A DNA stretch of 18,667 nt from positions 1 to 18,667 of the forward strand of contig CANPVY010000211.1 of the NCBI GenBank assembly GCA_947581845.1. Direction: 5' to 3'. Every line of letters begins with the position of its first letter. Position 1 is the stretch's first letter. Origin of the DNA: an uncultured bacterium. GTDB taxonomy: Bacteria > Gemmatimonadota > Gemmatimonadetes > Palauibacterales > KS3-K002. The position numbers were made by a program, and so were the translations under genes. Positions 138 to 15,375 of the stretch are shown piece after piece. Below the pieces are notes generated by a model. That model did no database searches and was not told the origin of the DNA. It saw nothing but the letters and a program-made list of their open reading frames with translations.

Positions 138-1217
138 CTACGCCGGGACGGGCTCTCCTGCCAAGCGTAGGAGCTCGTTCGGGTCGGCTGAGCGCTTCAA
201 AGCCTCCTCGAGCTTGATCTCACCCGTAAGATACAACTGATACAAGGCATCGTTGAGCGTCTGCATCCCGTGTTTCTTGCCGGCCTGCATAAGCCCATAG
301 ATCTGCTGCACTTTGTTGTCACGAATCACGGAGCGAATCGCCGGCGTCGCGATCATGATCTCGCACGCCACAACACGACCGCGCCCCCTCGTCTTCGGCA
401 GCAGGGTCTGTGTGATGACCCCCTCGAGCACGAACGACAGCTGCGCGCGCACCTGTGACTGCTGGTGCGAGGGAAAGACGTCGATGATACGGTTGATGCT
501 CTCGGCCGCCGAGTTCGTGTGCAACGTCGCCAGACACAGGTGGCCGGTCTCGGCCGCGGTAAGGGTCATCGCGACAGTCTCGAGATCCCGCATCTCGCCG
601 ATCAACAGCACGTCGGGATCCTGCCGCAGCGCGTACTTCAGAGCGTTGGCGAAGCTTTGTGTATCGCTACCGACCTCCCGCTGATTGATCATGCAGCCCT
701 GGTGCCGGTGGATGAACTCGATCGGCTCCTCGATCGTGATGATGTGACCTCTGCGCGTCTTGTTGATGTGGTCCACCATCGCGGCGAGCGTCGTCGACTT
801 CCCCGAGCCCGTCGGCCCCGTAACCAGCACCAGGCCACGCGGGCGCTCCGACAGCCTCTTGAGGATTGGAGGCAGCCCAAGCTCCTCGAACCCCATGATG
901 TTGAACGGGATCAGCCGAATCGCCAGCGCCACGCAACCTCGCTGCCGATAGGCGTTACCCCGGAACCGCGCCAGGTTTTGTATCCCGAAGGAGAAGTCGA
1001 GCTCGTCCTCCTGCTCGAACCGTTTCTTCTGGCTCTCGGTCAAGATCGAGTACGTCAGCTGCAGCGTATCTTTGGGCATGAGCACCTGGTCGATGTTCGA
1101 ACTGGCCAGCTCCCCGTCGACCCGCAGCTTCGGGCGCTCGCCTGCCGTCAGGTGCAGGTCGGACGCCTGCCGCTCGATCATCTCCTCGAGCAGCGCTCGT
1201 ACGCTCAATGTGACCAT
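138..1217 (-). CDS. pilT: Type IV pilus retraction ATPase PilT
   Basis: This is a hexameric cytoplasmic ATPase that powers pilus depolymerisation (twitching, DNA uptake). The 359 residues match the usual PilT length of about 345-370. Visible motifs, in order: N-terminal PAS-like segment with the family phrase ASDLHLTAG (residues 18-26); Walker A GPTGSGKS at 134-141 (Lys140); acidic Asp-box IEEP around 162-165; Walker B region GEMRD at 207-211; His-box HLCLATLHT at 226-234; and the PilT-specific C-terminal AIRSVIRD at 293-300, the counterpart of the AIRNLIRE motif needed for retraction. That last motif and the lack of an MshEN domain or tetracysteine separate it from PilB. The start is ATG at 1217; the ribosome site is weak. 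It lies 205 bp downstream of pilB and just upstream of pilC. Confidence 0.96.
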   Translation of the reverse strand: MVTLSVRALLEEMIERQASDLHLTAGERPKLRVDGELASSNIDQVLMPKDTLQLTYSILTESQKKRFEQEDELDFSFGIQNLARFRGNAYRQRGCVALAIRLIPFNIMGFEELGLPPILKRLSERPRGLVLVTGPTGSGKSTTLAAMVDHINKTRRGHIITIEEPIEFIHRHQGCMINQREVGSDTQSFANALKYALRQDPDVLLIGEMRDLETVAMTLTAAETGHLCLATLHTNSAAESINRIIDVFPSHQQSQVRAQLSFVLEGVITQTLLPKTRGRGRVVACEIMIATPAIRSVIRDNKVQQIYGLMQAGKKHGMQTLNDALYQLYLTGEIKLEEALKRSADPNELLRLAGEPVPA

Positions 1218-1422: not shown

Positions 1423-3150
1423 TCAGGCCGCTGTCTCCTTCAGCACCTCTTCGAGCGTCGTGACGCCGCGATTCACTTTGACCAGGCCGTCGTCGCGCAG
1501 GGTCAGCATGCCGTCCGCAATCGCCTGCTCCTTCATGGTGTCGGCGCTCTCGCCCTGCACGATCATCCGGCGGATCGTAGCGGTTATGGGCATCACCTCG
1601 TAGAGGCCCTGCCGCCCCCGGTACCCTGTCCCATCACAGTGCTCGCAACCCTCGCCCTTGTAGAACTTGAGCTCCGCGGCCTTCTCGCGCGGGATCATGG
1701 CCGCGTCCAGCACATCCGGATCGTAGCTGGTCTCGACCCTACAGTTGGTGCAGATCCTGCGCACCAGCCGCTGCGCTGTCACCAGGTTGACTGCCGACGC
1801 CACGTTGAACGGCTCCACCCCGATATCCATCAGTCGGGTGATCGTAGATGCGGCGTCGTTCGTGTGCAGGGTCGAGAGCACGAGGTGCCCGGTCAGCGCC
1901 GCCTTGATGGCGATACCGGCCGTTTCCAGGTCACGGATCTCACCGACCAGAATGATGTTCGGGTCCTGGCGCAGGAAGGCTCTCAGCGCCGCAGCGAACG
2001 TCAGGCCGATCTCCGGCCGCACCTGCGTCTGGTTGATGCCGCGGAGGTTGTACTCTACCGGATCCTCCGCGGTCATGATGTTCACATCCTCTGTGTTGAT
2101 CTTCAGCAGTGCCGCGTACAGCGTGGTCGTTTTACCCGAACCCGTGGGCCCGGTGACCAGCACCATCCCGTACGGGTTGCGGATCGCGCCCACGAACGCC
2201 TCCTCCGCCTGGGACTCCATGCCGAACTTCTCCAGGTCGAGCTGGAGATTCGACTTGTCCAGGATACGGAGGACGATCTTCTCACCGAACAGGCCTGGCA
2301 GCGTCGACACACGGAAGTCGATCACCCGCTTGCCCATCCGCATCTTGATGCGGCCGTCCTGCGGTATGCGGCGCTCCGCAATGTTGAGGTCGGCGAGGAT
2401 CTTCACGCGGCTGGTGAGCGCGGCCTTCATCCTCAGCGGTGGCCGCATGATCTCGCGCAGCGCACCGTCGACGCGGAAGCGGATCCGAACCTCCCTCTCG
2501 TAGGGCTCGATGTGGATATCGCTGGCGCCCTTCTGCACGGCGCTGGTCAGTATCCCGTTGATCAGCTTGACGACGGGCGCCTCTTCGACCTGAGCCTGCA
2601 GGGCGGTCACGGACATCTCGTCTTCGATGTCGCTGCCCTCCACGACCTCGATGTCCTCGTCATCGAATTGCTTGAGGATGTCCTGCAGCCCATCCTCGGT
2701 GCCCATCTCGTAGTGCTTCTCCACAGCCTTGCGCAGCGAATATTCGCCGGCAACCACTGGCTCGATGTCATAGCCCGTGGAGAACCGCAGCTCGTCGATC
2801 GCATCGAGGTTGGTGGGGTTCGCCATCGCCACGGTCAGCGTCCGGCCCACCCGGCGCAGCGGCAGCACTAGGTGCCGCACGGCGATCTCCGGCTTCACCA
2901 TCTTGATGACGCGACCATCGATGTGGTCGATCCGTGACAGATCCACTGCCTTCACCCGGTACTTGCGGGCGAGCACTCGCGTCAGATCAGTCTCGGACAC
3001 CACACCCATCGCCACCAGCGTGTAGCCGAGACGATGGCCGTTGGCCCGCTGCTCGTTGAGCGCCGCCTTCAGCTGATCCTCGGTGATCAGACCTTCGCGG
3101 ACGAGCAGGTCGCCAATCAGATCGCTGGATTTCGTTCGGGCTGTCGCCAT
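1423..3150 (-). CDS. pilB: Type IV pilus assembly ATPase PilB (GspE/PilB family) with tandem MshEN motifs
   Basis: Hexameric motor for pilus extension, 575 residues from the chosen ATG at 3150. The N-terminus is an MshEN (T2SSE_N) domain. Two 24-residue motifs, about 11-34 and 40-63, flank a 5-residue spacer RANGH, the arrangement known to bind c-di-GMP. The ATPase core has Walker A GPTGSGKT at 334-341, Asp-box AEDP at 361-364, Walker B GEIRD at 403-407 and His-box GHLVLSTLHT at 421-430. Four cysteines (467, 470, 502, 505; two CxxC pairs) form the usual zinc site. The frame is open upstream to a TTG at 3240 that overlaps the preceding stop as TTGA. Those 30 extra residues do not look like family sequence, so ATG 3150 is preferred, but neither start has a convincing Shine-Dalgarno. 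An ancestral type II secretion GspE is the alternative; linkage to pilT and pilC favours PilB. Confidence 0.94.
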   Translation of the reverse strand: MATARTKSSDLIGDLLVREGLITEDQLKAALNEQRANGHRLGYTLVAMGVVSETDLTRVLARKYRVKAVDLSRIDHIDGRVIKMVKPEIAVRHLVLPLRRVGRTLTVAMANPTNLDAIDELRFSTGYDIEPVVAGEYSLRKAVEKHYEMGTEDGLQDILKQFDDEDIEVVEGSDIEDEMSVTALQAQVEEAPVVKLINGILTSAVQKGASDIHIEPYEREVRIRFRVDGALREIMRPPLRMKAALTSRVKILADLNIAERRIPQDGRIKMRMGKRVIDFRVSTLPGLFGEKIVLRILDKSNLQLDLEKFGMESQAEEAFVGAIRNPYGMVLVTGPTGSGKTTTLYAALLKINTEDVNIMTAEDPVEYNLRGINQTQVRPEIGLTFAAALRAFLRQDPNIILVGEIRDLETAGIAIKAALTGHLVLSTLHTNDAASTITRLMDIGVEPFNVASAVNLVTAQRLVRRICTNCRVETSYDPDVLDAAMIPREKAAELKFYKGEGCEHCDGTGYRGRQGLYEVMPITATIRRMIVQGESADTMKEQAIADGMLTLRDDGLVKVNRGVTTLEEVLKETAA

Positions 3151-3236
3151 GCCGACCGGAGTAAGGTTGCCAAGCTGAAACCCGCTGGCGGGGGGAGTAC
3201 AGCAAGTTCTAAAGCTGTTGGACTTTACGGGAAGTG

Positions 3237-3932
3237 TCAAGGTCCAACGACGACCAGGGGTCTCAGCTGCTCCAGCGTCGCCGGCCCGATCCCCGGCACC
3301 TCCAACAGATCCTCCACGACCTCGAAGGCGCCGTGCTCACGTCGCCAGCGGGCGATCGCCCGCGCACGTGCCGGGCCGATCCCCGGCAGAGCCTCCAGCT
3401 CCTCGAGGCTGGCACGGTTCAGGTTCAGCCGCCCCGGCCCCCGCGGGCCAAGACCGCTCTCCTCGCCGTACCCAGAGCCTGGCATCCCTCTGGCCGCCGC
3501 CACCGGCAGGGCCAGGTAGGGCGCCAGGCGCCTGATTCTATTACTCCCCAGACCCGGCACCCGTTCCAGATCCCCCAGGTTCCGGAACGCTCCCCCCTCC
3601 CGACGGCTGTCCACAATCGCTCGCGCCAGGGCAGGCCCGACTCCCGGCAGCCGATCCAGCTCCGCCTCGTTGGCTGTGTTCGGGTCGATTCGCTCGCCGC
3701 GGGCCGGCGGTGCTGCGCGGCGCCGCTGCACCGTGTACGCCGACTCCGCCACCGCCAGCGCCGAATCCACATCCCCCGCCTCGCCCAGCCCGGAGGCGTG
3801 CACCTCCGCCGCCGGCGGCTGCAAGAGAACGCGGCTCAGCGCGGCCAGCAGTACGAGCAGCGAGCTGGCCAACAGGGCTCGCGTTTCACCTTCCGTCAAC
3901 CTCAAGGGAGCCCGCGCAACCTCCTCCCCCAC
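3237..3932 (-). CDS. Membrane-anchored protein with two ComEA-type helix-hairpin-helix modules
   Basis: 231 residues: a short cytoplasmic N-terminus, one hydrophobic segment (about 18-37), an Ala/Arg-rich linker, then two copies of the ComEA HhH module. Copy 1 covers about 80-140, with hairpins LPGVGPALA (95-103) and VPGLGSNRI (125-133). Copy 2 covers about 168-228, with LPGIGPARA (182-190) and VPGIGPATL (212-220). Each begins with the ComEA-type phrase of an Asn a few residues before the first helix (DPNTANEAEL; NLNRASLEEL). ComEA proteins bind incoming double-stranded DNA in the periplasm during transformation; most carry one such module. The GTG start is fixed by GGAGG (3944-3940) with a 7-nt spacer. 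The stop overlaps a possible TTG start of pilB, and the pilus neighbours fit a DNA-uptake role. That role is inferred; non-competence HhH proteins also exist. Confidence 0.9.
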   Translation of the reverse strand: MGEEVARAPLRLTEGETRALLASSLLVLLAALSRVLLQPPAAEVHASGLGEAGDVDSALAVAESAYTVQRRRAAPPARGERIDPNTANEAELDRLPGVGPALARAIVDSRREGGAFRNLGDLERVPGLGSNRIRRLAPYLALPVAAARGMPGSGYGEESGLGPRGPGRLNLNRASLEELEALPGIGPARARAIARWRREHGAFEVVEDLLEVPGIGPATLEQLRPLVVVGP

Positions 3933-4002: not shown

Positions 4003-4971
4003 TCAGCGGCCGCGATAGACGAGCCGGGTCACGACGGCGCCGACGACGCCCAGGCTGGAGGCCGAGACCTTGTCGGGTGTGTCCTCCGGCGTGTGCCAGT
4101 AGGGGAAGTCGAAGTCGATCACGTTGATGGTGGGAATGCCGGCCTCGTTCAGCGGTATGTGGTCATCGTTGATGGTGTGGCCCACCCGCCGGTGGAAGAT
4201 ATCGGAGAACCCGAGCCGTTGGGCCACGCTCCAGACGCGATCCACGACCTCCGGGGCCAGCTCGTTGGAGTTCCCCTCTACGTAGACGTCGAGGTCGCGA
4301 TCGCCCACCATATCCAGCAGCACGCCATACTCGGGAGCGTAGCCCTCCGGCAGGTGGCTGGCGAAATAGCGGGAACCCATGAACACGTCGTGGCCGACGG
4401 CGAAGTCGCCGTAGTCCTCACCGTCCACCAGCAACACATCCACGCCGCGCGGCGGCGGTACCTGCCGCAGCATATCAGCCAGCTCTAATAGGATGGCCGT
4501 GCCCGATGCGCCATCGTTCGCGCCGGGAACCGGCTTCTCACGGTCCTCCGGCCGCGCTGCCTGGTCCGAGATCGGCCTGGTGTCCCAGTGCGCGAGCAGC
4601 AGCAGCGGCGGCGGCGCCGAGGGTCGAAAGCGCGCCAGGAAGTTCACAAGCGGCAGCGTGTCCCCGGCGAGCGTCACGTGGCTGAAGCGTTGGAGGATCA
4701 GCGTATCGGCTCGCTCCGACAGGTACTCCTCCATCCAGCTCGCCATGGCCCGGTGACCACGTGTCCCGGGGACACGTGGTCCGAAGGCGACCTGACGCAC
4801 CACCAGCTCGTACGCCGCCGCGCCGTCGAAGCGCGGCTGCGTGGTCGCCGCAGATGCAGCCGGGCCCCGCTCGACCTCACGGTCAGCGCCGCCACAGGCA
4901 GCGCTCGCGATGGCCGTGGCCAGGGTCACGACCCACCCTGCCCGACCCCAAGAAACCGCTCTCTCGCTCAA
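4003..4971 (-). CDS. Glutaminyl-peptide cyclotransferase-like M28 zinc enzyme, exported (probable lipoprotein)
   Basis: 322 residues. A hydrophobic N-terminus (about 12-25) ends at Cys26 in an imperfect lipobox (SAAC), suggesting a secreted or membrane-tethered protein. The remainder is the M28 fold. Zinc ligands by family comparison are Asp153 (PGANDG), Asp186 (DGEDYG) and His293 (YWHTPED); His128-Trp-Asp130 is the HWD loop. The stretch NDDHIP (268-273) followed by the FPYWHT segment resembles EDDHIP...VWHT of mammalian-type (type II) glutaminyl cyclases. The catalytic trio would be Glu185, Asp220 and Asp269. Predicted reaction: cyclisation of N-terminal Gln to pyroglutamate with loss of ammonia, on exported proteins. 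An aminopeptidase is the alternative, since both activities share this fold. The TTG start overlaps the sprA stop (TTGA) and has a strong ribosome site, implying translational coupling. Confidence 0.88.
   Translation of the reverse strand: MSERAVSWGRAGWVVTLATAIASAACGGADREVERGPAASAATTQPRFDGAAAYELVVRQVAFGPRVPGTRGHRAMASWMEEYLSERADTLILQRFSHVTLAGDTLPLVNFLARFRPSAPPPLLLLAHWDTRPISDQAARPEDREKPVPGANDGASGTAILLELADMLRQVPPPRGVDVLLVDGEDYGDFAVGHDVFMGSRYFASHLPEGYAPEYGVLLDMVGDRDLDVYVEGNSNELAPEVVDRVWSVAQRLGFSDIFHRRVGHTINDDHIPLNEAGIPTINVIDFDFPYWHTPEDTPDKVSASSLGVVGAVVTRLVYRGR
4755..4781. repeat. Perfect 27-bp palindrome inside the QC-like gene
   Basis: GACCACGTGTCCC (4755-4767) and its exact reverse complement (4769-4781) flank one central base at 4768, so both 13-base arms match without error. 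It contains two CACGTG hexamers. It codes for about residues 64-73 (GPRVPGTRGH), a stretch resembling a conserved family motif. It could form an mRNA hairpin, bind a dimeric protein or be a by-product of codon choice. Confidence 0.9.
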
Positions 4972-7900
4972 CGTATCTCCCCCGTCTCTAGCAGGAACTG
5001 GCCGAACACGGAGATCTCGAGCTGCGTCGAGCCGGGTCGCTGTCCGAGCTCGCTCTGCGTGTCACGCCAGAATCCCTGCAACCCGAGGATGAACGGCCGC
5101 ATATCAGCCCCAATCGTAACATCGACTCGCCGAATCCGCAGATCGGTGAACGGCTCGCACTCGGACCCGAGGCCCGCTGGCTCAGGCGGCTCTAGCGCGC
5201 CACCCAGCTGCCGACATTCCTCGCGGCTGTCCTGAGAGAATCGCACCACAGTCCGCAACGGGTTAGCGAACATTCCGCTCTCGGCCAGCGCCGGGATACG
5301 ACCCGACACCTGGATCGAGTGGTTCGCCTGATCGCTCAACGTGGTACCGGTCGGATCGCGTCTCTCCCCGTCGGTCATCGTGAGGTTGAAGTTGAGCGAC
5401 CAATCCGTCGTCAGCGCCAGATCCACGCTCAAGGGAATCGACCTGGTCTCGCTCTCCCGGGCCTGGTCGGCGCCCAGTACCTCGCTCCGTGTCGTGCGCA
5501 AAGTGTAGCCGGTGCGCAACCCCAGGCTCCGGACCCAGCGATCCAGGAAACTCGGCAGCGGCAGCCGCGCCCAGTTGATCGTCAGGCGGGGCCACGACGT
5601 GTTGCGGTTCCTCGATCGGCTGATCGGCGTCCAGCTGAGGATCTTGCTCTGCGAAAAGTCCACGTTGAGATTGGCACCCAGCGGCAACCTCAACCCCGAG
5701 GAGAGCGAGGTCCCAACGTTGTCGATCAAGCGGCTGGTGGTGTCACCGTCCTGCACCCTGAAACCGTTCCAGCTTGCCAGCCCCAGATGATATGCCAGGT
5801 CCGGGCTGGCCGTGCGACGCTGATAAGAGGAGCCCAGCGAGTTGGTGTAGGTCCCGCTGATCAGATCCAGACTGCCCAGCAGCCCGGACAGCACGCCAAC
5901 CAGGCCCGACGGGTTCGCGCCGAACGCATCCTGTAACAGGGCCAGCGGGTTCAGGCTCGCCGAGAGGCGAAGGCTGCGTGAGCCGTCGAAATCCCGCGTC
6001 AACACCGTGTCAGCCTCCTGCTCGGCGACGAAGGAGGGCCCCCGGTCGAACCGGAACCGCGTGTCGAACGATGCCTGCGGTGTCAGCCAGGCCGCCAGGT
6101 CCGGCCGGTACGTCCAGTTCACGTTCAGCACACGCGCCGTCTCCCAGCCCAGGTCCAGTCCCGCCAGCTTGGAGCGCTCCGCCTCGATCACGCGCCGCGC
6201 GGCCTGACCCTGCACCAACTCCGCGGTGGGCACCAGTTCCCGGGTCTGGTTGAAGGTCACCCGCCCGGTCAGCGAGGTCAGAGGCTCCAGGTTCACCGTG
6301 GCGTTCGTCTGCAGCTGCTGATCCAACATGCGAATCGGCACGGCCGCCGTGTCCGAAGGCAGCTCGATGATCTGCTCGAACCGTCGAGTCTCAGTCTCGG
6401 CGTCCACATAGCTGGCGTTCAGCTGCACGGACTGCGGCGTCAGGCGGAGTCGTGACTCTCGCACTGCAGCCGGCAGGAAGAAGAACAGCTTGGCCAGCGG
6501 GCCCGGGAAGAGCGGCAGCGATACGTCCACCACGTCATGCCGGAACGAGTAGCCCGCTCGGATCACATCGGACTCGCTGCTCGACCTGGAATTCTGATTC
6601 GTGCGCCGGTCATAGGAGAAGCGCAAGGCCGAATTGTCGATGAACCAGCCCACCAACGGTATCGCCACCGGCGACTGCCTGTCGATTCCGAAACCCAAGC
6701 TCAGGCCGCGGTTGCTGGGCCTGCGCAGGCCGCGAAGCTGCTCCGCCGGTACGTCGGTGCGCGGTAACAGGAGAGGCTCCGAAGACGAGCTGGAGTAGCT
6801 CAGGGTGAGGGGCAGATTCATCCCCCACGAACCCGGTAGCATCCGCCCCAGCCGCAGCTGGCCGCCGATGCTGTACTGCTTGGCGGAGCGGAAACTCGGG
6901 CTCTGCGCCAGCTGACGGAAATACGGGTTCTCGCCCGAGTAGGAGAAGTTCAAACTCAGGAAGTCCGCCGCCCGTATGTCCACGTTGAGCCGGCTGACCA
7001 CGCCCGTGTTGTCCACGGGAGCAGTAAGCCGGAAATCATCCACCCACAGTTCGCCCGAGATGGGGATGTCCGCTCCCGAGTTATAGGCGCCGAGCGAGAT
7101 CTGGCGGACGGCCGCCAAGTTGGGTGCGCGCGAGCGCTGGCTGATGACGATCGCGTAGCTGCTGTCACCATCCTCAAAGACGTCAAAGTCCCAGAGCTCC
7201 AACACGCTGTCTGGCGGCAGTCCGCCCTGGCGCAGCATGAGCTCCTCAGCCGCGGCACGCAGCCTGATGAAGCGGTCGAAGTCGATCTCGATCTCGGGCA
7301 ACCAGGCCTGCCGCAACTCCTCGCCCTGCGCATCGGGCGGCACCGCTTGGAGCGGAGCCTGGAACATGTAAAAGTTGCGCGCATCCTCGCCCAGCTTGAC
7401 CAGGAGGCGAAGCGGCTCACCTGCCGTGCCCCAGGGGCCGTCGACGCCCAGGGCCCAGAGCCTCAGGCTGCGGTAGCCGAGAAGATCACGCGGCGTCTGC
7501 GGGTACTGCAGGAACACCTCCGCCCGCTCGCCCGCACCCACCTCGCTGAAGCGGATGCTCAATGACTGCTCGTTGATCGTCGTGCCGCCGATGCTGAACT
7601 GCTCCGCCTGGTTCGCCACCTGGTCGGTGATCCCCGGCGGCGGGATGTAGCGCGCGTCCAGCGTGCTGATCGGGCCGACCTCCACCAGCGCTTCGGGCAG
7701 CAGCGCGGACGTGGTATCGGCCAGACCCGTGACCACGCCGGCGCGACCACGCTTCAGCCAGCGCGAGCCGAGGAAGCGGACCCGTGCCAGGATGAGCCTG
7801 TTGTTCGATTCCGTGACCAGCGTGAAGCGCAGGTGCCGGATATTCTGGAACTCCGCATCGCTGACACGCTCGCGATGGTCAGGCCGCCGCAGCGGGATAC

Positions 7901-10900
7901 GGAAGAGGCGGAAGCGAGCAGGCCCGAAATCATTAGCATCGCGCACGAAGTACGGGCTCGACGGATCGCCGATGCGCACCGTGTAGCGGAAGAACCGTTC
8001 GTCCGCATCGAGCACGCTGTTCTGATTCAGGTCCTCGGTGTCCTCGAGCCCGTTGTTCCGGGTGCAGTTCGCGGCCACGTCACCGACAGAGTACGCCCGC
8101 ACGCGCGGCTCTGCCTCGCAGCCGCTGTCCCAGAGCCCCACGTCATCGGCGTTGCTCCAGATGTTGGGAGGGTCAACCTCCCGATCCAGGCGACCGATCC
8201 CTGAGGCCTGCCCCAGTGAGTCGATGCCGAACCCGTCCTCGCTGACGGTCCCCATGTCGATGATCAGGCTGGTGGAATCGCGCAGCTCTTCCGGTACGGC
8301 CACGTAGAACTCCAGGTACTCGATGGTCGTGAAGTCCTGGCCGGTCGGTGAGATCACGGTCGTCATCGACCGCCAGGCGGGACCGGCCGGCGGGTTCGGG
8401 TTCGGCGCGATCGAGCGGTTCTCCGGTAGCAGAGCACTGATCGTGAGGACCGGTTCCGGCCGTACTTGGCCCTGAATACGGAGTTCCTCATCGATGTCCT
8501 GCGGCAGCAAGCCGCCCACGGTCACCTGGCCCTCGGACGTCTGCACCACGTACTGGTCCTGCCAGACCAGCTCGGCCGCGTTCCCTTCCGTGAACAGGCT
8601 CGGCGCCACGGCCTCGGCCCCCGCCGCGGTGGGAGGCGCGGAGCCGAGGCGCCAGGCCCTCGAGGTCAGGAACAGCGAGAAGCCCGAGCCGCCCTCGAAA
8701 TCCTCGACGTAGGTCACCCCCTGCGTGTTGCTGTTCGGCACCGACACCGCAAGCTCGCCGTCCAGCGAGATCGTGGACGGGGCCTCCGTCTCCAGGCCGG
8801 GCAAGCCGCTCACCAGCTGCGTGAGCCAGTTCGGACGAAAGTCGAGCCGGCCGGAGATGCCACCCAGCTGCACAGCACTGGGCTCCAACCCCAGCTCCGG
8901 CCGCGTTTGCAGTGTCTTCTCACGCTGCGAGAGGCCGACGAAGTTCAGTTCGCCGCGCTCGCCCAGACCGTAGCGGGCCTGGAACCCGAACACGCTGGTC
9001 GGCGCCAGCTGGAACAGCGGTTTCTGCTCGAAGGCGACGTGGACCCGCGCGTTGGGGTTGTTCTGGAACCAACGCTCCGGCTCGCGAAGCTCGATCTGGC
9101 CGATGTCGTAATCGATGGTGTAGTCCTCGCCGCGGACCAACTCGACATCGTCGATCACCAGCTTCTCACTCGCCTCGCGAACCCCACCCGCACCCAGCGA
9201 GATCGTGGAGAGGAAGCCCTCGAAGCGCTGGCGGTAGCTAATCGTCAGCAGATAGAGGTTCGCGCCGCGCCGGACCTGATCGTTGGGCTCGTCGTAGATC
9301 ACCGGGTTCTGGTCGCCCGGATCCAGGGGGAACGGCTGTCCCGAGAACCCGGGCACGTCCCGCAGCGGCGGCGGCCTGCGGAACGGCTCCAGCGTTGGCG
9401 GGATCAGGTACGTGCCACTCAACCCTGCCGTCGTGCCCGCACCCACCTCGGGCGGCTCGTAGATCCGCGACGCATCGATCCGATTGTCGGTGGGATCGTC
9501 GTCGAACCCGAAGATCTTCAGCATCTCCAGCTGCTGGCCCTCCGGTAAGGCGCGGAATGTGTTCCCGAGCTCGGGATCCCCCTGCGAGATGATCACCTCG
9601 AGGCTGCTGGTCACCACGCCGGGGCTCGCCGAGACACGGTACACGTGGTGCATCTCACGCCGCCACGTGGCCGTGCCCGGTCGATGGTTCACGCCCTTGA
9701 TCAACTCCAGGACTGGCGGGTCCACGTTCTCGGGATCCGCGATGTGTGCGTCGGAAACCTCCTCGGCGTTGAACGTCCCGATCTGCGTACCATCCGCAGC
9801 CACATAGGTGATCGCTAGCCCCTCGCGATCGGCCAGCGTGTTGCGCAGCTGAAGCCACAGCCCGCTCTGGTGGAGGATGTAATCCTCCCCATCGACCAGC
9901 GGCCGGAACAGCCCGGTCAGCGTATCGGTGACCACGGTATCCGCACCGGCCGACGTCCGCACCGTGTCAAAGGCGACCGCGATCGCCTTGATAAAGCCCT
10001 CCGGAACCTGCCCACCGGCGCCGTACCCGAGCGTCTCGTAGCGGTACACCTTGACCACCGAGGCCGGTCGCACATCGACAGGTGCGTCCGAGGCAACGAG
10101 CCGCTGGATATCGATGTCCGGATAGCGGCTCAGTCGGCGCGGCGTGAACAGGAACAGGAATCGACCACGCTCGTAGTCGGCATCGTCGAGGATCGTGGTC
10201 GCGCTCTGCTCGAAACCCTGACCGCCGCCGCCGACCTGCAGCTCGCGCGTACCGATATCACCTTTCTGCTGGGCCCACACGGCCTGGAAATCGATGGGGC
10301 CGACCTGGCCCGTGGTACGGAAACCGAAGTTGCCTGCCGGGATCCCCTGCGTCAGGTAGCGGCTCTGCGGCAGCGACAGACTGACGTCACCGACCTCGAT
10401 ACGCTGGAGGATCTCATCCTCGAGACCCTGATAGAAGACGTTGATGTTGTTGGCCGCGTCGAACTCGCGCCGATTGTCGTAGTCGACGCTCACGTGGATG
10501 CGATCAGAGATCGTGCCGCCCACGCGTGCCCCGAACTGGATATCCGGCTTCAGCGTCGGGATCAGGCTCGGATTGCAGTTGAACTGGACCGTTACATCGC
10601 AAGGCCGGAAACGGTTCCAGCCACCGCCCACCTCGACTCTACCCTGAACGGCGATGCCGAGATCGGCGTACTCGCCGAACACATCCGGCAGAAGCTCCGA
10701 CTCGCTCTCGGCCGCTGGCGCCGGCTCGACCGGAGCGAGTTCCGCCACCGCGCTGTCCACACCGATCTCACCTACCGCCAGCTCCTCCGCCTCCGGCTCG
10801 GCGACCGCACGGCGCGCCGCCCGAATCGCCACCGGTCTGCTGTCCCGCCAGACCGCTGCCTGCCACTCGGCAAGCTGCGCGGTCACCCGCGCCTCCCAGA

Positions 10901-11321
10901 TCTCGCCCCAGCTGCGGACGCGCGAGCGCAGCTCGGGCAGCTGGCTGGCCGGATCGACCAGACGCGAGAGGAGATCGACCGGGAAGGGCAGAGGAAGCGT
11001 CTTCAGCCCCAACCGCACACGACCCGGACCTGGGCCCAACCCCGTCGTGTCGGCGGCCACGCTCGTATCGCTGCCGGCAGCTACCGCGGTGACGGTGTCT
11101 TGCGGGACCGAGCGGATGCCCGGCGGCGTGGTGTCCTGGGGGGGCGGACGGGCTCCCTGCCGTGCGGTGTCTTGCGCAGCGGGACTCGAGCGCCCCTCCT
11201 CACGACATAGCCCTGCCACCGGGGCAACGGCGCCCCCTGCGTGCTGGGAGGTCCAGCTCAAAGCCAGAATGACGGCAGCGCCGCCGAAGAATCTGAGCCT
11301 CAGGCGCACCTTTGGCCGCAA
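4968..11321 (-). CDS. sprA: SprA-family giant outer-membrane protein (type IX secretion translocon homologue)
   Basis: 2,117 residues, close to the roughly 2,400 of Bacteroidota SprA, a 36-strand barrel forming the T9SS outer-membrane channel. It starts with basic residues and a hydrophobic stretch (about 11-22), a signal peptide. A Pro/Asp/Thr-rich linker follows, with QDT at 50, 62 and 74. The first SprA-type domain begins near residue 225 (GRVEVGGGWNRF), with the phrase DYDNRREFDAANNINVFYQG further on. The family hallmark YVEDFEGG (about 871-878), followed by a Trp in SRAWRLGS, matches the DDFEG...W phrase of SprA. Around 1490-1510, GSWGMNLPLTLSYSSSSSEP matches another conserved barrel segment. 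The C-terminal half is dominated by alternating strands. The start is uncertain: TTG at 11321 has no clear ribosome site, and GTG at 11309 is possible. It is divergent from lptF and overlaps the QC-like gene by 4 nt. No other T9SS component lies in the window. Confidence 0.9.
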   Translation of the reverse strand: MRPKVRLRLRFFGGAAVILALSWTSQHAGGAVAPVAGLCREEGRSSPAAQDTARQGARPPPQDTTPPGIRSVPQDTVTAVAAGSDTSVAADTTGLGPGPGRVRLGLKTLPLPFPVDLLSRLVDPASQLPELRSRVRSWGEIWEARVTAQLAEWQAAVWRDSRPVAIRAARRAVAEPEAEELAVGEIGVDSAVAELAPVEPAPAAESESELLPDVFGEYADLGIAVQGRVEVGGGWNRFRPCDVTVQFNCNPSLIPTLKPDIQFGARVGGTISDRIHVSVDYDNRREFDAANNINVFYQGLEDEILQRIEVGDVSLSLPQSRYLTQGIPAGNFGFRTTGQVGPIDFQAVWAQQKGDIGTRELQVGGGGQGFEQSATTILDDADYERGRFLFLFTPRRLSRYPDIDIQRLVASDAPVDVRPASVVKVYRYETLGYGAGGQVPEGFIKAIAVAFDTVRTSAGADTVVTDTLTGLFRPLVDGEDYILHQSGLWLQLRNTLADREGLAITYVAADGTQIGTFNAEEVSDAHIADPENVDPPVLELIKGVNHRPGTATWRREMHHVYRVSASPGVVTSSLEVIISQGDPELGNTFRALPEGQQLEMLKIFGFDDDPTDNRIDASRIYEPPEVGAGTTAGLSGTYLIPPTLEPFRRPPPLRDVPGFSGQPFPLDPGDQNPVIYDEPNDQVRRGANLYLLTISYRQRFEGFLSTISLGAGGVREASEKLVIDDVELVRGEDYTIDYDIGQIELREPERWFQNNPNARVHVAFEQKPLFQLAPTSVFGFQARYGLGERGELNFVGLSQREKTLQTRPELGLEPSAVQLGGISGRLDFRPNWLTQLVSGLPGLETEAPSTISLDGELAVSVPNSNTQGVTYVEDFEGGSGFSLFLTSRAWRLGSAPPTAAGAEAVAPSLFTEGNAAELVWQDQYVVQTSEGQVTVGGLLPQDIDEELRIQGQVRPEPVLTISALLPENRSIAPNPNPPAGPAWRSMTTVISPTGQDFTTIEYLEFYVAVPEELRDSTSLIIDMGTVSEDGFGIDSLGQASGIGRLDREVDPPNIWSNADDVGLWDSGCEAEPRVRAYSVGDVAANCTRNNGLEDTEDLNQNSVLDADERFFRYTVRIGDPSSPYFVRDANDFGPARFRLFRIPLRRPDHRERVSDAEFQNIRHLRFTLVTESNNRLILARVRFLGSRWLKRGRAGVVTGLADTTSALLPEALVEVGPISTLDARYIPPPGITDQVANQAEQFSIGGTTINEQSLSIRFSEVGAGERAEVFLQYPQTPRDLLGYRSLRLWALGVDGPWGTAGEPLRLLVKLGEDARNFYMFQAPLQAVPPDAQGEELRQAWLPEIEIDFDRFIRLRAAAEELMLRQGGLPPDSVLELWDFDVFEDGDSSYAIVISQRSRAPNLAAVRQISLGAYNSGADIPISGELWVDDFRLTAPVDNTGVVSRLNVDIRAADFLSLNFSYSGENPYFRQLAQSPSFRSAKQYSIGGQLRLGRMLPGSWGMNLPLTLSYSSSSSEPLLLPRTDVPAEQLRGLRRPSNRGLSLGFGIDRQSPVAIPLVGWFIDNSALRFSYDRRTNQNSRSSSESDVIRAGYSFRHDVVDVSLPLFPGPLAKLFFFLPAAVRESRLRLTPQSVQLNASYVDAETETRRFEQIIELPSDTAAVPIRMLDQQLQTNATVNLEPLTSLTGRVTFNQTRELVPTAELVQGQAARRVIEAERSKLAGLDLGWETARVLNVNWTYRPDLAAWLTPQASFDTRFRFDRGPSFVAEQEADTVLTRDFDGSRSLRLSASLNPLALLQDAFGANPSGLVGVLSGLLGSLDLISGTYTNSLGSSYQRRTASPDLAYHLGLASWNGFRVQDGDTTSRLIDNVGTSLSSGLRLPLGANLNVDFSQSKILSWTPISRSRNRNTSWPRLTINWARLPLPSFLDRWVRSLGLRTGYTLRTTRSEVLGADQARESETRSIPLSVDLALTTDWSLNFNLTMTDGERRDPTGTTLSDQANHSIQVSGRIPALAESGMFANPLRTVVRFSQDSREECRQLGGALEPPEPAGLGSECEPFTDLRIRRVDVTIGADMRPFILGLQGFWRDTQSELGQRPGSTQLEISVFGQFLLETGEIR
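4977..4983 (-). promoter_or_regulatory. Shine-Dalgarno GGGGGAG inside the sprA 3' end
   Basis: On the minus strand GGGGGAG is followed by 5 nt and then the TTG at 4971. It supports TTG as the QC-like start. It lies within the last codons of sprA, so re-initiation by ribosomes finishing sprA is likely. Confidence 0.75.
11076..11183 (-). repeat. Three imperfect 12-residue repeats in the SprA N-terminal linker
   Basis: Residues 47-82 read as three consecutive 12-residue units, PAAQDTARQGAR, PPPQDTTPPGIR and SVPQDTVTAVAA, with QDT at the same place in each. The underlying 36-bp units are diverged. This is probably an unstructured spacer between the signal peptide and the first domain. Confidence 0.55.
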
Positions 11322-11327
11322 TGGGGG

Positions 11328-11367
11328 TAACTATCTTGCAGCGAACCTGGTAAGTTACAGATAGTTA
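11328..11367. promoter_or_regulatory. Divergent sprA/lptF control region with a 9-bp inverted repeat
   Basis: The 45 bp between the two divergent starts (11322-11366) holds TAACTATCT (11328-11336) and its exact reverse complement AGATAGTTA (11359-11367), separated by 22 bp. Each half-site sits directly before one start codon: 6 bp from the sprA TTG, and overlapping the A of the lptF ATG. The region is AT-richer than its surroundings. A TTGCAG (11337-11342) sits 18 bp from GATAGT (11360-11365), a weak -35/-10-like pair, but that would place a transcript start inside lptF. An operator, or paired -10-like elements, are both possible. Confidence 0.5.
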
Positions 11368-12971
11368 TGAAAATACTCCAACGCTACATACTCCGCGAGC
11401 ATATCGGCCCCTTCCTCGCCGCGCTCGGCGTCCTCACCGGCCTCATGCTGCTCAATCAGCTCGCCAAGCGCTTCGGCGACCTGGTCGGTAAGGGGCTGCC
11501 CTGGTATGTCATCGCCGAGGTCTTCGGCCTGTCGGTCCCGTTCATCGTGGCCATGACCATGCCGATGGCCGTGCTCGTCGCGGTTCTCTATGCGTTCAGC
11601 CAGCTCAGCAGCGACAATGAGATCACCGCCATCAAGGCCGGAGGCGTCAGCCTACTGCGCTTCCTCTTCCCCGTCTTGATTTTCGCAGCCGCGATCGCTA
11701 CGGGCATGGTATGGTTCAATGACGCTATCCTGCCCGAATCGAATCACGCGCTGCGCCAGCTGCTCACGGACATCGGACGCAAGCAGCCGACCTTCGAACT
11801 GCGCGAGCGCGTGGTCAACGAGGTCGTGCAAGGGAAGCTCTTCCTGCAGGGCGCGCGTATCGACCGGGCGCGCAGTGTGCTCCAGGATATGGTCATCTTC
11901 GACCTCGGCCGCAACGACGTGCAGCGGACCATCTATGCGGACTCCGGCCATATGGCCTTCAACGAGACCCAGACGGACCTCTACCTCACGCTCTACGACG
12001 GCTCGATGCACGAGCTGGATCTCAGCAACCCGCGGATGGACCAGCGGTCCTACTACGCCAAGCAGGTCATCCGAGTCCCGGGAGTCAGCAACGAGTTGCA
12101 GCGCGGTGGTTCCGCTAGTTGGCGCGACGATCGCTCGATGAACATCAGCATGATGCAGGAGGAGGTCGTCAGGCGACGCGTCCGCCTGCTCGAGCTCCAG
12201 GACAGCGTCGCCAGGATCATGGCCTTGCTGTCACCGATCCGTGCACAGCACACGCCTCCCAGTCTGCGCGGGCACGACACGCCAGACGAGATCAACCACG
12301 TCAGAGGGGCAGCCTCCGCTGACCATGAGCGTCCACCCCAAGACGAGCGCGTGCAGGCGCGGCGACGGCCTGAGGCCCTACGTGCGCCAGATCGCTCGCC
12401 GGGCGAGCAGTCCAGCGCACGCGCACGAGCGGCAGCCGAGGGGCGAGCGCGCAGCCTTGCACAACTGCGGTCGACATCGCGACGGGAACAGTGGCCGCCC
12501 GGCAGGCCCGCTGCTGGGTTCGCCACCTTCGTGCGCAGCGAACTTCAGCGTGCCGCGTCGCGCACGAACCTCCAGCGGCGCGAGATCAACCGCTACTCGG
12601 TGGAGATCCACAAGAAGTTCGCGATCCCGATCGCCGCCATCGTGTTCGTCATCATCGGCGCCCCCATCGGCGTCCGCTTCCCACGCGGTGGGATCGGCAT
12701 GGTGATCGGCGTCAGCCTGACGGTCTTCTGCGTGTACTACGTGTGCCTGATCGGTGGCGAGGACATCGCGGATCGAGGCTACATATCGCCCTTCTGGTCG
12801 ATGTGGGCGCCCAACGTGATCTTCACGGCCATCGGCGTCATCATCCTCTATTGGGTCGGGCGCGGCGGCACGCGCCGTAGCTACCGCCGGCTCCGCAAGT
12901 TGGCTCGGCTGCTGGGGCTTTCCGGGCGGGCCAACGAGACTGCGCCGCGCGTGCGAGGGAGCACGGCATGA
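11367..12971 (+). CDS. lptF: LPS export ABC transporter permease LptF, with an unusual linker
   Basis: With LptG this forms the inner-membrane part of the LptB2FG transporter, which extracts lipopolysaccharide and passes it to LptC/LptA. The N-terminus carries the family phrase RYILRE (6-11), then membrane segments near 13-33, 50-75 and 97-118, with NEITAIKAGGVS in the cytoplasmic loop. A periplasmic jellyroll covers about 120-250. After a linker, the phrase INRYSVEIHKKFAIP leads into three more membrane segments and GVRFPRGG. At 534 residues it is much longer than the roughly 366 of E. coli. The excess lies mainly at about 292-390, an Arg/Ala/Pro/Glu-rich stretch with lower third-position GC than the rest of the gene, so frameshifts there are possible. 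The ATG is fixed by homology; its ribosome site is poor. It overlaps lptG as ATGA. Confidence 0.93.
   Translation: MKILQRYILREHIGPFLAALGVLTGLMLLNQLAKRFGDLVGKGLPWYVIAEVFGLSVPFIVAMTMPMAVLVAVLYAFSQLSSDNEITAIKAGGVSLLRFLFPVLIFAAAIATGMVWFNDAILPESNHALRQLLTDIGRKQPTFELRERVVNEVVQGKLFLQGARIDRARSVLQDMVIFDLGRNDVQRTIYADSGHMAFNETQTDLYLTLYDGSMHELDLSNPRMDQRSYYAKQVIRVPGVSNELQRGGSASWRDDRSMNISMMQEEVVRRRVRLLELQDSVARIMALLSPIRAQHTPPSLRGHDTPDEINHVRGAASADHERPPQDERVQARRRPEALRAPDRSPGEQSSARARAAAEGRARSLAQLRSTSRREQWPPGRPAAGFATFVRSELQRAASRTNLQRREINRYSVEIHKKFAIPIAAIVFVIIGAPIGVRFPRGGIGMVIGVSLTVFCVYYVCLIGGEDIADRGYISPFWSMWAPNVIFTAIGVIILYWVGRGGTRRSYRRLRKLARLLGLSGRANETAPRVRGSTA
12955..12961 (+). promoter_or_regulatory. Shine-Dalgarno GAGGGAG for lptG
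   Basis: GAGGGAG lies 6 nt before the lptG ATG, inside the final codons of lptF. It fits coupled translation and balanced production of the two subunits. Confidence 0.7.
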
Positions 12972-14038
12972 GGACACTCGACCGCTACGTGGCCGGCCTC
13001 TACCTCAAGGTCTGGCTCATCTGCGTGTTCGGCGCTCCCATCTTGTTCATCGTCATCAAACTGACCGACGACCTGGACAGGTACTTGAGCCGCGGAGTCA
13101 GCGTGCAGCAGTTGCTGCTCGCCTACCTCTACGACTTCCCCTACCAGATGGCCCTCTCCCTCCCCGTGGCCAGCCTGTTCGGAGCCGTCTTCACGGTCGC
13201 GCTGATGAGCCGCCATTTCGAGATCACCGCCGCCAAGGCCAGTGGGGTGAGCTTCTACCGGATCATCGCCCCGATGCTGCTGCTGGGCGGCCTGCTCACG
13301 ATCGGCGGACTCGCGCTCGGCGAACTGGTGCCGGTGACCAACCGTCTGCGAGCCGAGGCCCTGGGTGAGCGCCTCAGCGCACGCCGCAGCATGCGCACTC
13401 AGTTCGTCTACGGCGCCGATGGCGGACGCGCGTACACGATCAAGCGACTCGCGGCGGCTACCGGCCGCATCGATGGCATCCTGATCGACCGCGAGGGAAC
13501 CGGGCCTGACTATCCGACCTATCGGATCTACGCACCGCAGGCAGAGTGGACGGGCGCGCGCTGGCTGATGCAGAACGGCTACCTCAGCTACTTCCCCAGC
13601 CAGGACCGCGCCGTGACCTTCGCCTTCGACACACTGCTCCAGATCGACTTCTCCGAGACGCCCCAAGACCTGCTGGCGGAACCCAAGGATCCCGAAGAGA
13701 TGAACTACCGCGAGCTGGGCCGCTTCATCGAGTCGATCGAGAGGTCGGGCGGCGACGCGCGCAAGCTCGAGGTCGAGCGGGCACTGAAGATCTCCTTCCC
13801 CACAGCCTGCCTCATCGTCGTCCTCTTCGGCTCCGCCCTGGGGATGGCGACGGGCAGCAGGGGGCCGGCGATGGGCGTGGGAATCGCCCTGGCCACCGTG
13901 ATGATCTACCTGCTGAGCGTGCGGATCGCACAGGGGATGGGTGCCGGCGGCATCTTGCCACCGATGTTGGCCGCCTGGCTCCCGAACCTGCTCTTCCTGG
14001 GGGTTGGATTGGTCTTGCTGGCTCGCACGAGGACGTAG
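12968..14038 (+). CDS. lptG: LPS export ABC transporter permease LptG
   Basis: 356 residues, the normal LptG length. The N-terminal helix begins with the family phrase LDRYVAGLYLK. Membrane segments lie near 15-32, 55-80 and 98-120, and the cytoplasmic coupling loop HFEITAAKASGVSFYRI resembles the matching loop in the LptF neighbour. The periplasmic jellyroll covers about 125-260. The conserved re-entry phrase KLEVERALKISFPTACLIVVLFG starts the last three membrane helices, which run almost to the C-terminus. The ATG overlaps the lptF stop as ATGA and has a good ribosome site, so the pair is co-translated. LptB, LptC, LptA and LptD are not in the window. The paralogues are assigned by order and by the long LptF; the F and G names could only be swapped by a family-level comparison. 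Confidence 0.93.
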   Translation: MRTLDRYVAGLYLKVWLICVFGAPILFIVIKLTDDLDRYLSRGVSVQQLLLAYLYDFPYQMALSLPVASLFGAVFTVALMSRHFEITAAKASGVSFYRIIAPMLLLGGLLTIGGLALGELVPVTNRLRAEALGERLSARRSMRTQFVYGADGGRAYTIKRLAAATGRIDGILIDREGTGPDYPTYRIYAPQAEWTGARWLMQNGYLSYFPSQDRAVTFAFDTLLQIDFSETPQDLLAEPKDPEEMNYRELGRFIESIERSGGDARKLEVERALKISFPTACLIVVLFGSALGMATGSRGPAMGVGIALATVMIYLLSVRIAQGMGAGGILPPMLAAWLPNLLFLGVGLVLLARTRT

Positions 14039-14063: not shown

Positions 14064-14840
14064 TCAGCCCGGAACGACCAGCTCTGCCAGCAGCGAGTAG
14101 CCCCCGGCACGCTCGTCCGCGCGCCGCAACAGCGCACCGGGCTCCGCCCCGTCCTTGGGATGGCTGGCCACACCGACTCTCAGCCGCTCAGGGCTGCACT
14201 TCCCCGCGACATCCCGAGCCGAGAGGAACGACGAGAGCACTCGCTGCACCGCGACCTGCGCTCCCTCCGGCCCCGTGTCAGGCAACAACATCCCAACGCC
14301 GCGACCGTCGAACGTCCCCAACACATCGAGCAGCCGACAGCTGTCGCGGCCCTGCTTCGCCACCTCCCGTATCAGTTGCTCATCGGGCGGCTCCAGCTTG
14401 AAGACGGCCAGCGATAGCGGCAGCCGCCGGCGTCGTGCCCGCTCCAGTTCACACTCGAGCAACAGAGCGAATCCCAGTTTGTTGTAGCAACTCGGAACAT
14501 CGCTCTTCAGTTTCTGGATCTCGAGCGGCTCGTCCTCATTGAACCACTCCAGTTGACTCTCACGACGCAACCTGAGCGGGCCCTCACTGCTGGCCACCGC
14601 CTGAGTCAACGACTCGAGGTAGTACAACTCCACCGCCCGCCGCGCCGAGGCCGCAAGCTGTTCAGCTAGCTCGCGAGCCGCATCTTTACCTTGCCCCGGC
14701 TCGAAATTCTCCATCCGTAGCGAGGCCAATCTCAAGCTCAGCGCAAGATCGCGTGCCGTGTTCGCCGCTATCGCGCGAACATCCTGGGCGGCCGCCTTAT
14801 CGACTTTCATCCTGTTGGGCTCCCTGTTGCGCTCAACCAC
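14064..14840 (-). CDS. Protein with a degenerate (catalytically dead) GGDEF-like domain
   Basis: 258 residues. The N-terminal 110 residues are helical and charged with no recognised domain. From about 116 the sequence follows the GGDEF fold: CYNKLGFALLLECELERARRR with the usual Asn, Phe and Glu/Arg spacing; PLSLAVFKLE for the first core strand; RLLDVLGTF before the signature; MLLPDTG after it; and RVGVASHP...LLRRADE at the end. The signature itself reads FDGRGVG (177-183) instead of GGDEF, and the metal-binding Asp of the first strand is replaced (VFKLE). Cyclase activity is therefore unlikely; a sensory or protein-binding role is possible. GTG at 14840 follows GGGAGG by 10 nt and overlaps the upstream gene by 8 nt. 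ATG at 14810, also with a GGGAG upstream, would drop ten residues. It converges on lptG with a 25-bp gap and no obvious terminator. Confidence 0.75.
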   Translation of the reverse strand: MVERNREPNRMKVDKAAAQDVRAIAANTARDLALSLRLASLRMENFEPGQGKDAARELAEQLAASARRAVELYYLESLTQAVASSEGPLRLRRESQLEWFNEDEPLEIQKLKSDVPSCYNKLGFALLLECELERARRRRLPLSLAVFKLEPPDEQLIREVAKQGRDSCRLLDVLGTFDGRGVGMLLPDTGPEGAQVAVQRVLSSFLSARDVAGKCSPERLRVGVASHPKDGAEPGALLRRADERAGGYSLLAELVVPG

Positions 14841-15375
14841 TGGATTCTGGCCTCCCTTCGCTCGCCCGCTCCTGCGCTTCCTCGGGCGGTGACCATATCA
14901 CGCCACACCACGCACAATAGTGACCCTCTCCGATATCGACCGGCTTGCCCCACCCGTCATCCTCCGTGAGCACGCCGTATTGCATCGGCGCCCCGCAGCG
15001 CGGACAGATCAAACCCTCGCCCCGGCGAAGACTCGTCGTCAGCTGCTCCACCTCGTCCCCCGTGTAGGGATCCATCGAGATGACGAAGTCGTGATCCTCA
15101 GGCTCCCGGGTGCAGCGCAACACGATCCGTACACGCGTGCCGCCCGGCCGGCTGACCTCACGCCGGCCCGGCAGCAGCAGCCCGACACACCCGGGTCGAG
15201 GGCAGTCGATGACGACCGGCCGCCTCAAGAACTCCCGCTTGATCGCGGCGGCGACCGACTGTCCGCCTTCCTGGTCAGACCCGCGCGCGGGCTGCTGCCG
15301 GGCCGAGCGACCCGGATCGCTCTCGCGGCTCGCCCAGCGCTGCCTCATCCACACCACATTCTTCCCGCTCGCCAT
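14833..15375 (-). CDS. Zinc-ribbon protein of unknown function
   Basis: 180 residues. I do not recognise the family. The first 45 residues are polar and probably disordered. Two cysteine clusters follow. The first is incomplete: Cys58, Cys63 and Cys88, with His95 as a possible fourth ligand. The second is a canonical ribbon: CPRC at 124-127 and CAWC at 154-157, 26 residues apart. Between them lies the acidic segment SMDPYTGDEVEQL. There is no signal peptide or membrane segment, so it is probably cytoplasmic; nucleic-acid or protein binding is the usual role of such ribbons. The start is ATG at 15375, with GGAG and AGGAG upstream. It overlaps the degenerate-GGDEF gene by 8 nt, so the two are likely co-expressed and may act together. 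It could be a small regulator; nothing in the sequence settles this. Confidence 0.78.
   Translation of the reverse strand: MASGKNVVWMRQRWASRESDPGRSARQQPARGSDQEGGQSVAAAIKREFLRRPVVIDCPRPGCVGLLLPGRREVSRPGGTRVRIVLRCTREPEDHDFVISMDPYTGDEVEQLTTSLRRGEGLICPRCGAPMQYGVLTEDDGWGKPVDIGEGHYCAWCGVIWSPPEEAQERASEGRPESSG

Follow-up and report, generated by a model that had tools for sequence, protein, structure and literature searches.

In Bacteroidetes, type II glutaminyl cyclases (QCs) such as PgQC (PG_2157), TfQC, BtQC and PdQC have a common fold, an Asp/Asp/His metal site that includes a bacteroidal-specific Asp, a catalytic Glu/Asp pair and an N-terminal lipid anchor, and they go together with Gln as the residue that follows signal-peptide cleavage (PMC5837995, PMC10653852, PMC7948796). 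The paper on this "Q-rule" presents it as belonging to Bacteroidetes, high values elsewhere being scattered over a few Chlorobi-labelled genomes, Ignavibacterium and some cyanobacteria, and its authors conclude that in Bacteroidetes pyroglutamate does not control type IX secretion (PMC5837995). The type IX secretion system (T9SS) itself was found only in Bacteroidetes in another study (PMC4793230). Here we describe a stretch of 18,667 nucleotides (the window) from an uncultured Gemmatimonadota bacterium (contig CANPVY010000211.1), in which a gene for a SprA-like outer-membrane translocon overlaps a gene for a QC-like protein of the M28 fold. An earlier reading of the letters (the sequence-only reading) had proposed from this overlap that pyroglutamate capping of cargo is a built-in step of SprA-dependent export, and it knew of no description of the pairing. 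We found none in the open-licence literature either, and no paper there on a Gemmatimonadota glutaminyl cyclase, or on such an enzyme in connection with SprA and T9SS. The explanation that we consider probable is that the type II QC caps exported proteins in general, that the overlap with sprA is an old co-expression arrangement and that SprA is one user of the capped proteins.

Overlap of sprA and the QC gene

The two genes and their junction are as follows.

4968..11321, minus strand: sprA/sov-like gene for an outer-membrane translocon of 2117 aa, start codon TTG (TIGR04189, SprA_N, uninterrupted open reading frame [ORF])
4003..4971, minus strand: gene for a glutaminyl cyclase of the bacteroidal type (type II, M28 fold), start codon TTG, product of 322 aa and predicted to be a lipoprotein (Cys26) (PDB sequence matches, model, active-site residues)
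4968..4971, minus strand: TTGA, sprA stop over QC start codon (read in the sequence; same in G184, G166 and G158)
4977..4983, minus strand: GGGGGAG, Shine-Dalgarno-like, in the 3' end of sprA (read in the sequence)

The sprA product scores 525.5 bits against TIGR04189 SprA (cut-off 200) and 72.6 bits against Pfam SprA_N. Its stop codon TGA (4970-4968) shares bases with the TTG start of the QC gene (4971-4969), and GGGGGAG (4983-4977) lies within sprA, 5 nt before that start, just as the sequence-only reading had described. TTGA and a preceding purine-rich stretch are present in 4/4 genomes inspected of the window's family, f1 (G000, G184, G166 and G158; G, L and f numbers are our own handles), and in the last three, which are relatives, this stretch is GGGGGAG or GGAGAG. 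From the overlap, we infer translational coupling of sprA and QC. According to PMC10653852, PgQC shares an operon with PG_2158 and hemG, whereas the Gemmatimonadota QC overlaps sprA in an operon-like arrangement. The genome containing the window is 65% complete, in 400 contigs, and its supposed Gemmatimonadota origin was borne out by the best named relative among the matches listed, the Gemmatimonadota chromosome CP070823.1, with a QC that is 84% identical. In G158 the sprA matches are split, the first 1729 residues lying beside lptF (G158:C1:3279770-3284959) and the last 400 beside QC (2939167-2940390), 340 kb apart, as if the gene had been broken by a rearrangement or an assembly join.

Identity of the downstream enzyme

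Based on sequence, active-site residues and a structure model, we place the enzyme, a predicted lipoprotein, in the bacteroidal type II QC family and not among the aminopeptidases. Its PDB sequence matches are 6qql/7cje (3e-53), the best structures among the matches listed for the model (pLDDT 88.4) are bacterial QCs, and in both sequence and fold it is nearer to these than to M28 aminopeptidases. The NDDHIP (residues 268-273) and YWHT (291-294) motifs and the Glu/Asp/Asp set noticed earlier are indeed present: E185, D220, D269, D270 and H293 are invariant in 32/32 aligned sequences, the window's included, and so are the metal-site residues D153, D186 and H293, mapped by alignment to the PDB matches and with PMC7948796. 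The invariant catalytic residues E185 and D220 correspond by alignment to HsGlu201 and HsAsp248, and Asp186 replaces Glu202 of human QC. In the dizinc M28 aminopeptidases VpAP and SgAP, Glu is the third metal ligand, whereas in the QC set this ligand is Asp186 in all 32 sequences. The Cys26 of the predicted lipid anchor is aligned in 31/32 sequences; the window's own lipobox, SAAC, is atypical. The enzyme has in common with the Bacteroidetes type II QCs the fold, the metal-site and catalytic residues and, by prediction, the lipid anchor, and Gln is enriched after signal-peptide cleavage in most of the samples below; it differs from them in its phylum, in a pocket Trp193 that is not conserved and in being often replaced by a type I cyclase.

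Spread of the gene pair

A survey of 200 Gemmatimonadota genomes, comprising the window's and others at least 80% complete, was carried out with QC, SprA and PF05096. Presence was scored at E <= 1e-3 for sprA (145 genomes, 139 of them over the family cut-off) and at >=100 bits for type II QC (135 genomes). Both genes are present in 96 genomes, and in 69 of these QC lies downstream of sprA on the same strand. For this count, QC could be up to 6.5 kb from where the SprA alignment ended, a limit kept wide because several genomes listed only the N-terminal half of SprA. Different contigs or strands carry the two genes in 24/96 (16 in f6, 4 in f3, 1 in f4 and 3 in f10); some of those from f3 and f4 have one of the genes at the end of its contig. 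For 3/96 no SprA place was listed. At the ORF level 52 loci were measured, of which at least three are second copies from one genome. The gap was -4 nt in 17 of them, -1 nt in 5 and 0 nt in 1; overlaps are undercounted, as the script's choice of start skipped TTG in L002, L003, L004, L033 and L197. The recurrence of this order in 69/96 genomes points to a pairing beyond chance, and the adjacency is not peculiar to the genome in which it was noticed.

It also extends to other phyla. A scan of GTDB genomes with QC gave at least 590 relatives, of which the best 80 were kept, 51 of them without a Gemmatimonadota label. Among these 51 loci, 13 have sprA directly upstream of QC, with gaps of -1 to 204 nt (KSB1, 3; Marinimicrobia, 4; Calditrichota, 2; Zixibacteria, 1; Bacteroidetes-labelled, 1; Actinomycetota-labelled, 1; unassigned, 1); L230 was left out for its 3.8 kb gap at the ORF level. 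The pair in KSB1, Marinimicrobia, Calditrichota and Zixibacteria implies that it is old or that it was shared among these groups, and recurrence of the operon in several phyla leaves co-regulation of the two genes as likely. The contig of the Actinomycetota-labelled assembly (L254, JAACEJ010000559.1), which carries sprA and QC, was probably wrongly binned.

Independence of the two genes and modularity of the locus

Across the 200 genomes, sprA and type II QC are statistically independent (both, 96; sprA only, 49; QC only, 39; neither, 16; p = 0.61, kinship ignored), and each occurs without the other. The locus itself is modular. The order lptF (divergent), sprA, QC, comEA, pilB is conserved, and each of sprA and QC can be missing from it. 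The window's genes around the pair are the following.

3237..3932, minus strand: comEA-like helix-hairpin-helix gene, first downstream of QC (family matches; recurrent neighbour)
1423..3240, minus strand: pilB/gspE-type ATPase gene (family match; recurrent downstream neighbour)
138..1217, minus strand: pilT-type ATPase gene (family match)
11367..12971, plus strand: lptF, divergent from sprA, starts 45 bp apart, left border of the conserved block (family matches; recurrent border)
12968..14038, plus strand: lptG (family matches)

The lptF/QC/pilB arrangement without sprA was seen in all 7 that were inspected of the 39 QC-only genomes (G126, G018, G108, G157, G189, G123 and G129), with comEA in 6/7, and the same sprA-less block is present in seven named records (L198, L201, L204, L206, L227, L239 and L245), with comEA in all except L206. 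In three further named records (L205, L210 and L215), sprA is absent from the stretch and none of the block's neighbours is present. Conversely, lptF, sprA, comEA and pilB occur without QC in that place in G006 (L036), G019 (L195) and many f6 genomes; in G150 (L037), sprA, comEA and pilB were seen and no lptF was found in the stretch. Outside Gemmatimonadota, the stretches available for 12 of the 13 adjacent pairs showed no comEA and no pilB, and the three KSB1 loci keep lptF.

The window's lptF contains a low-complexity insert of about 120 residues. A frameshift suspected from this odd middle part was rejected, as the insert is collinear in relative L197. Further along, at 14064-15375, lies an overlapping gene pair; one product is a weak GGDEF-type protein, the other is small, rich in Cys and matches no NCBIfam family, and similar frames are also present in relative L277.

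A type I cyclase as stand-in

In Gemmatimonadota genomes, type I and type II QCs, two unrelated proteins, are largely mutually exclusive. The beta-propeller type I cyclase (PF05096, plant/bacterial), whose predicted reaction is the same, has an unrelated fold and a gene elsewhere in the genome; it is over the cut-off in 70/200 genomes and above 100 bits in 67. At 100 bits, 21 genomes have both types, 114 type II only, 46 type I only and 19 neither (odds ratio 0.076, p 2e-14). Type I thus largely fills in for type II, being present in 46/65 genomes without type II QC and in 35/49 sprA genomes without it, and some QC of either type is present in 131/145 sprA genomes versus 50/55 sprA-less ones. 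The type I-only genomes are spread over six families (f2-f7), which suggests that there may have been several replacements. A clear lipoprotein Cys stands near the start codon in 5/6 type I proteins read, all of them from f4 (L181-L184 and L186; L185 was unreadable), so that both QC types are probably located in the envelope. Among the 19/200 genomes with no QC above 100 bits are G125, G120 and G176 (f2, genus g6); one may think here of a third enzyme, of sequence that is missing or of a relic.

Gln after signal-peptide cleavage

Genes and signal peptides were called by home-made scripts on about 2.2 Mb of genome stretches. At each [AVSTILG]xA in the signal-peptide c-region the next residue was counted, without choosing a site, and Gln was compared with Gln in the same region. 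In this triplet count, Gln was the most enriched residue in 7/9 Gemmatimonadota samples, namely, the f1 pool (28/166 versus 6.1% expected, p 1e-6), G129 (17/63), G199 (10/39), G069 (17/86), G017 (16/58), G019 (12/55) and G125 (12/58). In E. coli it was not significant (3/29, p 0.42). Of these, G017 and G019 have type I QC only. TonB receptors gave a similar picture. We picked 20 of the 97 Plug-domain matches in the window's family, regardless of signal peptide, and read their N-termini by eye. A signal peptide is present in 17/20 (none in L282, L284 and L294), and 16/17 read A/Q (the slash marks cleavage), one of them from the window's genome; L281 has a signal peptide with no clear cleavage site. 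The Gln signal is found in TonB receptors and in signal-peptide proteins generally, also where QC lies away from sprA or is of type I.

Near QC genes of other phyla, in samples too tiny for a conclusion and with a looser motif, Gln was enriched in Marinimicrobia (10/40), Zixibacteria/Calditrichota (6/23), Armatimonadota (6/35) and Bacteroidetes/Bacteroidota-labelled genomes (7/28 and 4/23), not enriched in KSB1 (1/22) or Ignavibacteria/Kryptonia (0/15) and not significant in Poribacteria (3/33). Within Gemmatimonadota, the Q-rule seems to hold and, as type I is mostly present where type II is missing, it seems to survive replacement of the enzyme. Three other approaches were dropped: a motif model including +1, which favours Gln by itself; one blind to +1, which drifted into the hydrophobic core; and a filter for outer-membrane proteins by C-terminal pattern, which left only 6 proteins (5 with Gln).

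Type IX secretion components

As in T9SS, the SprA family match is well over the cut-off, and PorV-family and a few CTD-like proteins occur in the same genomes. The difference lies in the sortase and the cargo signal. PorU was over the cut-off in 0/55 genomes of the window's class (the window's genome being 65% complete) versus 6/6 f10 genomes, which belong to another class; in 10/55 class genomes the PorU profile is matched weakly and at its C-terminal end only. For the TIGR04183 CTD there are 1-2 weak matches in 15/55 class genomes and none in the window's genome, compared with 11-33 per f10 genome. PorV/PorQ-family proteins are over the cut-off in 33/55 class genomes, the window's included; the one PorV-family fragment scanned (L280) reached 63 bits for PorV proper (cut-off 250). 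A search for the GldM/PorM motor gave no match in any genome, controls and f10 likewise unmatched.

In several class genomes, a PorV-family gene adjoins a long protein with a CTD-like tail. Cases are L278 (1352-5626), L279 (490-3534) and L280, and the same arrangement lies about 13-22 kb from sprA in six genomes (G030:C32, G012:C8, G044:C2, G036:C226, G050:C64 and G043:C202). Two of these proteins from the window's genome start with Gln after a likely signal peptide (AVA/QTV in L278, ASG/QQP in L279), their CTD-like tails resting on weak matches to the PorU profile end and to FlgD_ig below the cut-off. Beyond the locus of a relative, visual inspection of the 20 kb stretch L277, where no family search was made, showed no T9SS-CTD gene. 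A canonical T9SS in the window's class is doubtful, and there may be a reduced or divergent SprA/PorV route. That sprA occurs in genomes without a detected T9SS sortase is a separate question.

Discussion

Taken together, these results suggest how the QC may work in Gemmatimonadota. A lipid-anchored periplasmic type II QC would act on the N-terminal Gln laid bare by signal peptidase I, and many Sec-exported proteins would thereby receive an N-terminal pyroglutamate. This cap would protect them from aminopeptidases, as in the Q-rule of Bacteroidetes. The overlap with sprA would be an ancient, conserved operon arrangement ensuring co-expression of envelope-export genes. Because either gene can apparently be lost without the other, and because a non-homologous type I cyclase can apparently replace the type II QC, SprA would be one user of the capped proteome and not the reason for capping.

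Several results weigh against this interpretation. The position of PgTrp193, which lines the active site and is reported as a conserved, accessory and not catalytic Trp in bacteroidal QCs, is Phe197 in the window and Leu in 21, Phe in 9 and Tyr in 2 of the 32 sequences, suggesting a divergent Gemmatimonadota subgroup of the bacteroidal type II QCs. The genome counts ignore relatedness, and the signal-peptide finding is home-made. The sequence-only reading had asked whether Gln is enriched at +1 of the predicted signal-peptide substrates of this very genome; the enrichment stands in the seven samples and the receptors, but the window's own genome was hardly sampled, and the triplet count was not significant in G070 (type I QC; 7/61, p 0.08) or G161 (no QC found; 4/36, p 0.29). 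G125, in which neither QC type was found, is clearly enriched (p 1e-4), so that the Gln bias and the enzyme match imperfectly. E. coli receptors lean to Gln as well, with 2/6 at +1 (p 0.008 versus the window's family), which makes the receptor contrast smaller than it appears. In an initial, crude pass, Gln stood at +1 in 5-24% of candidates (samples with at least 20) and in 1/22 in the window's genome. A fixed-site rule gave 0-48% (f1 pool 15/89, G161 0/12, E. coli 1/21). The leave-one-out motif model that includes +1 gave 140/236, but also 4/13 in E. coli and a mean of 19-37% in shuffled sequences, and only 2/6 in the window's genome. As these cruder estimates are lower or biased, we give weight only to the triplet counts, which involve no choice of site, and to the N-termini of the receptors. 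Finally, recurrence of the pair in several phyla is also what a specific SprA/QC partnership would lead one to expect.

A more far-reaching history can be imagined, although we think it rather unlikely. The ancient sprA-QC operon across the phyla around Bacteroidota would have been an export module, in which the lipid-anchored QC capped proteins in concert with SprA, and Gemmatimonadota would later have made capping a general, SprA-independent Q-rule, kept through repeated replacement by an unrelated enzyme.

The sequence-only reading went further, in making the QC a dedicated partner of SprA, whose cargo would be capped before it enters the channel or while it passes through. Consistent with such a partnership are the close and frequently overlapping pairing in Gemmatimonadota and in loci of KSB1, Marinimicrobia, Calditrichota and Zixibacteria, the PorV-family genes and the Gln at the likely mature start of the two window-genome proteins with CTD-like tails. 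However, presence of the two genes is independent, QC is kept without sprA in 39 genomes (in the same place in the 7 inspected), sprA and QC lie apart in 16/16 f6 genomes that have both, a type I cyclase stands in, Gln at +1 is general and no PorU was over the cut-off in the 55 class genomes. We therefore consider capping as a built-in step of SprA-dependent export to be improbable.

It is less probable still that the adjacency is a frozen neighbourhood of no functional meaning, with the Gln bias an effect of composition. The conserved block also holds lptF and the unrelated comEA and pilB, and it can lack sprA or QC, as such a neighbourhood might. Against this, the pair stands apart from comEA and pilB in the stretches of 12/13 loci of other groups, lptF being kept in the three from KSB1, and Gln is enriched exactly after the cleavage motif when measured against Gln in the same region. 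That the neighbour is instead a dizinc M28 aminopeptidase trimming exported proteins or peptides, and its cyclase label wrong, is very hard to believe of a protein that belongs to the M28 fold but has the Asp186 ligand and is closer to bacterial QCs.

General capping by the type II QC, with the sprA overlap as an old co-expression arrangement, thus remains the explanation that we prefer. If it is true, the purpose of the Q-rule could be tested by comparing genomes that naturally have a type II cyclase, a type I cyclase or none. If the Q-rule holds in Gemmatimonadota, its enzyme standing next to sprA in an old operon and often exchanged for an unrelated cyclase, N-terminal capping of exported proteins would be an old, selected property of a larger diderm group.

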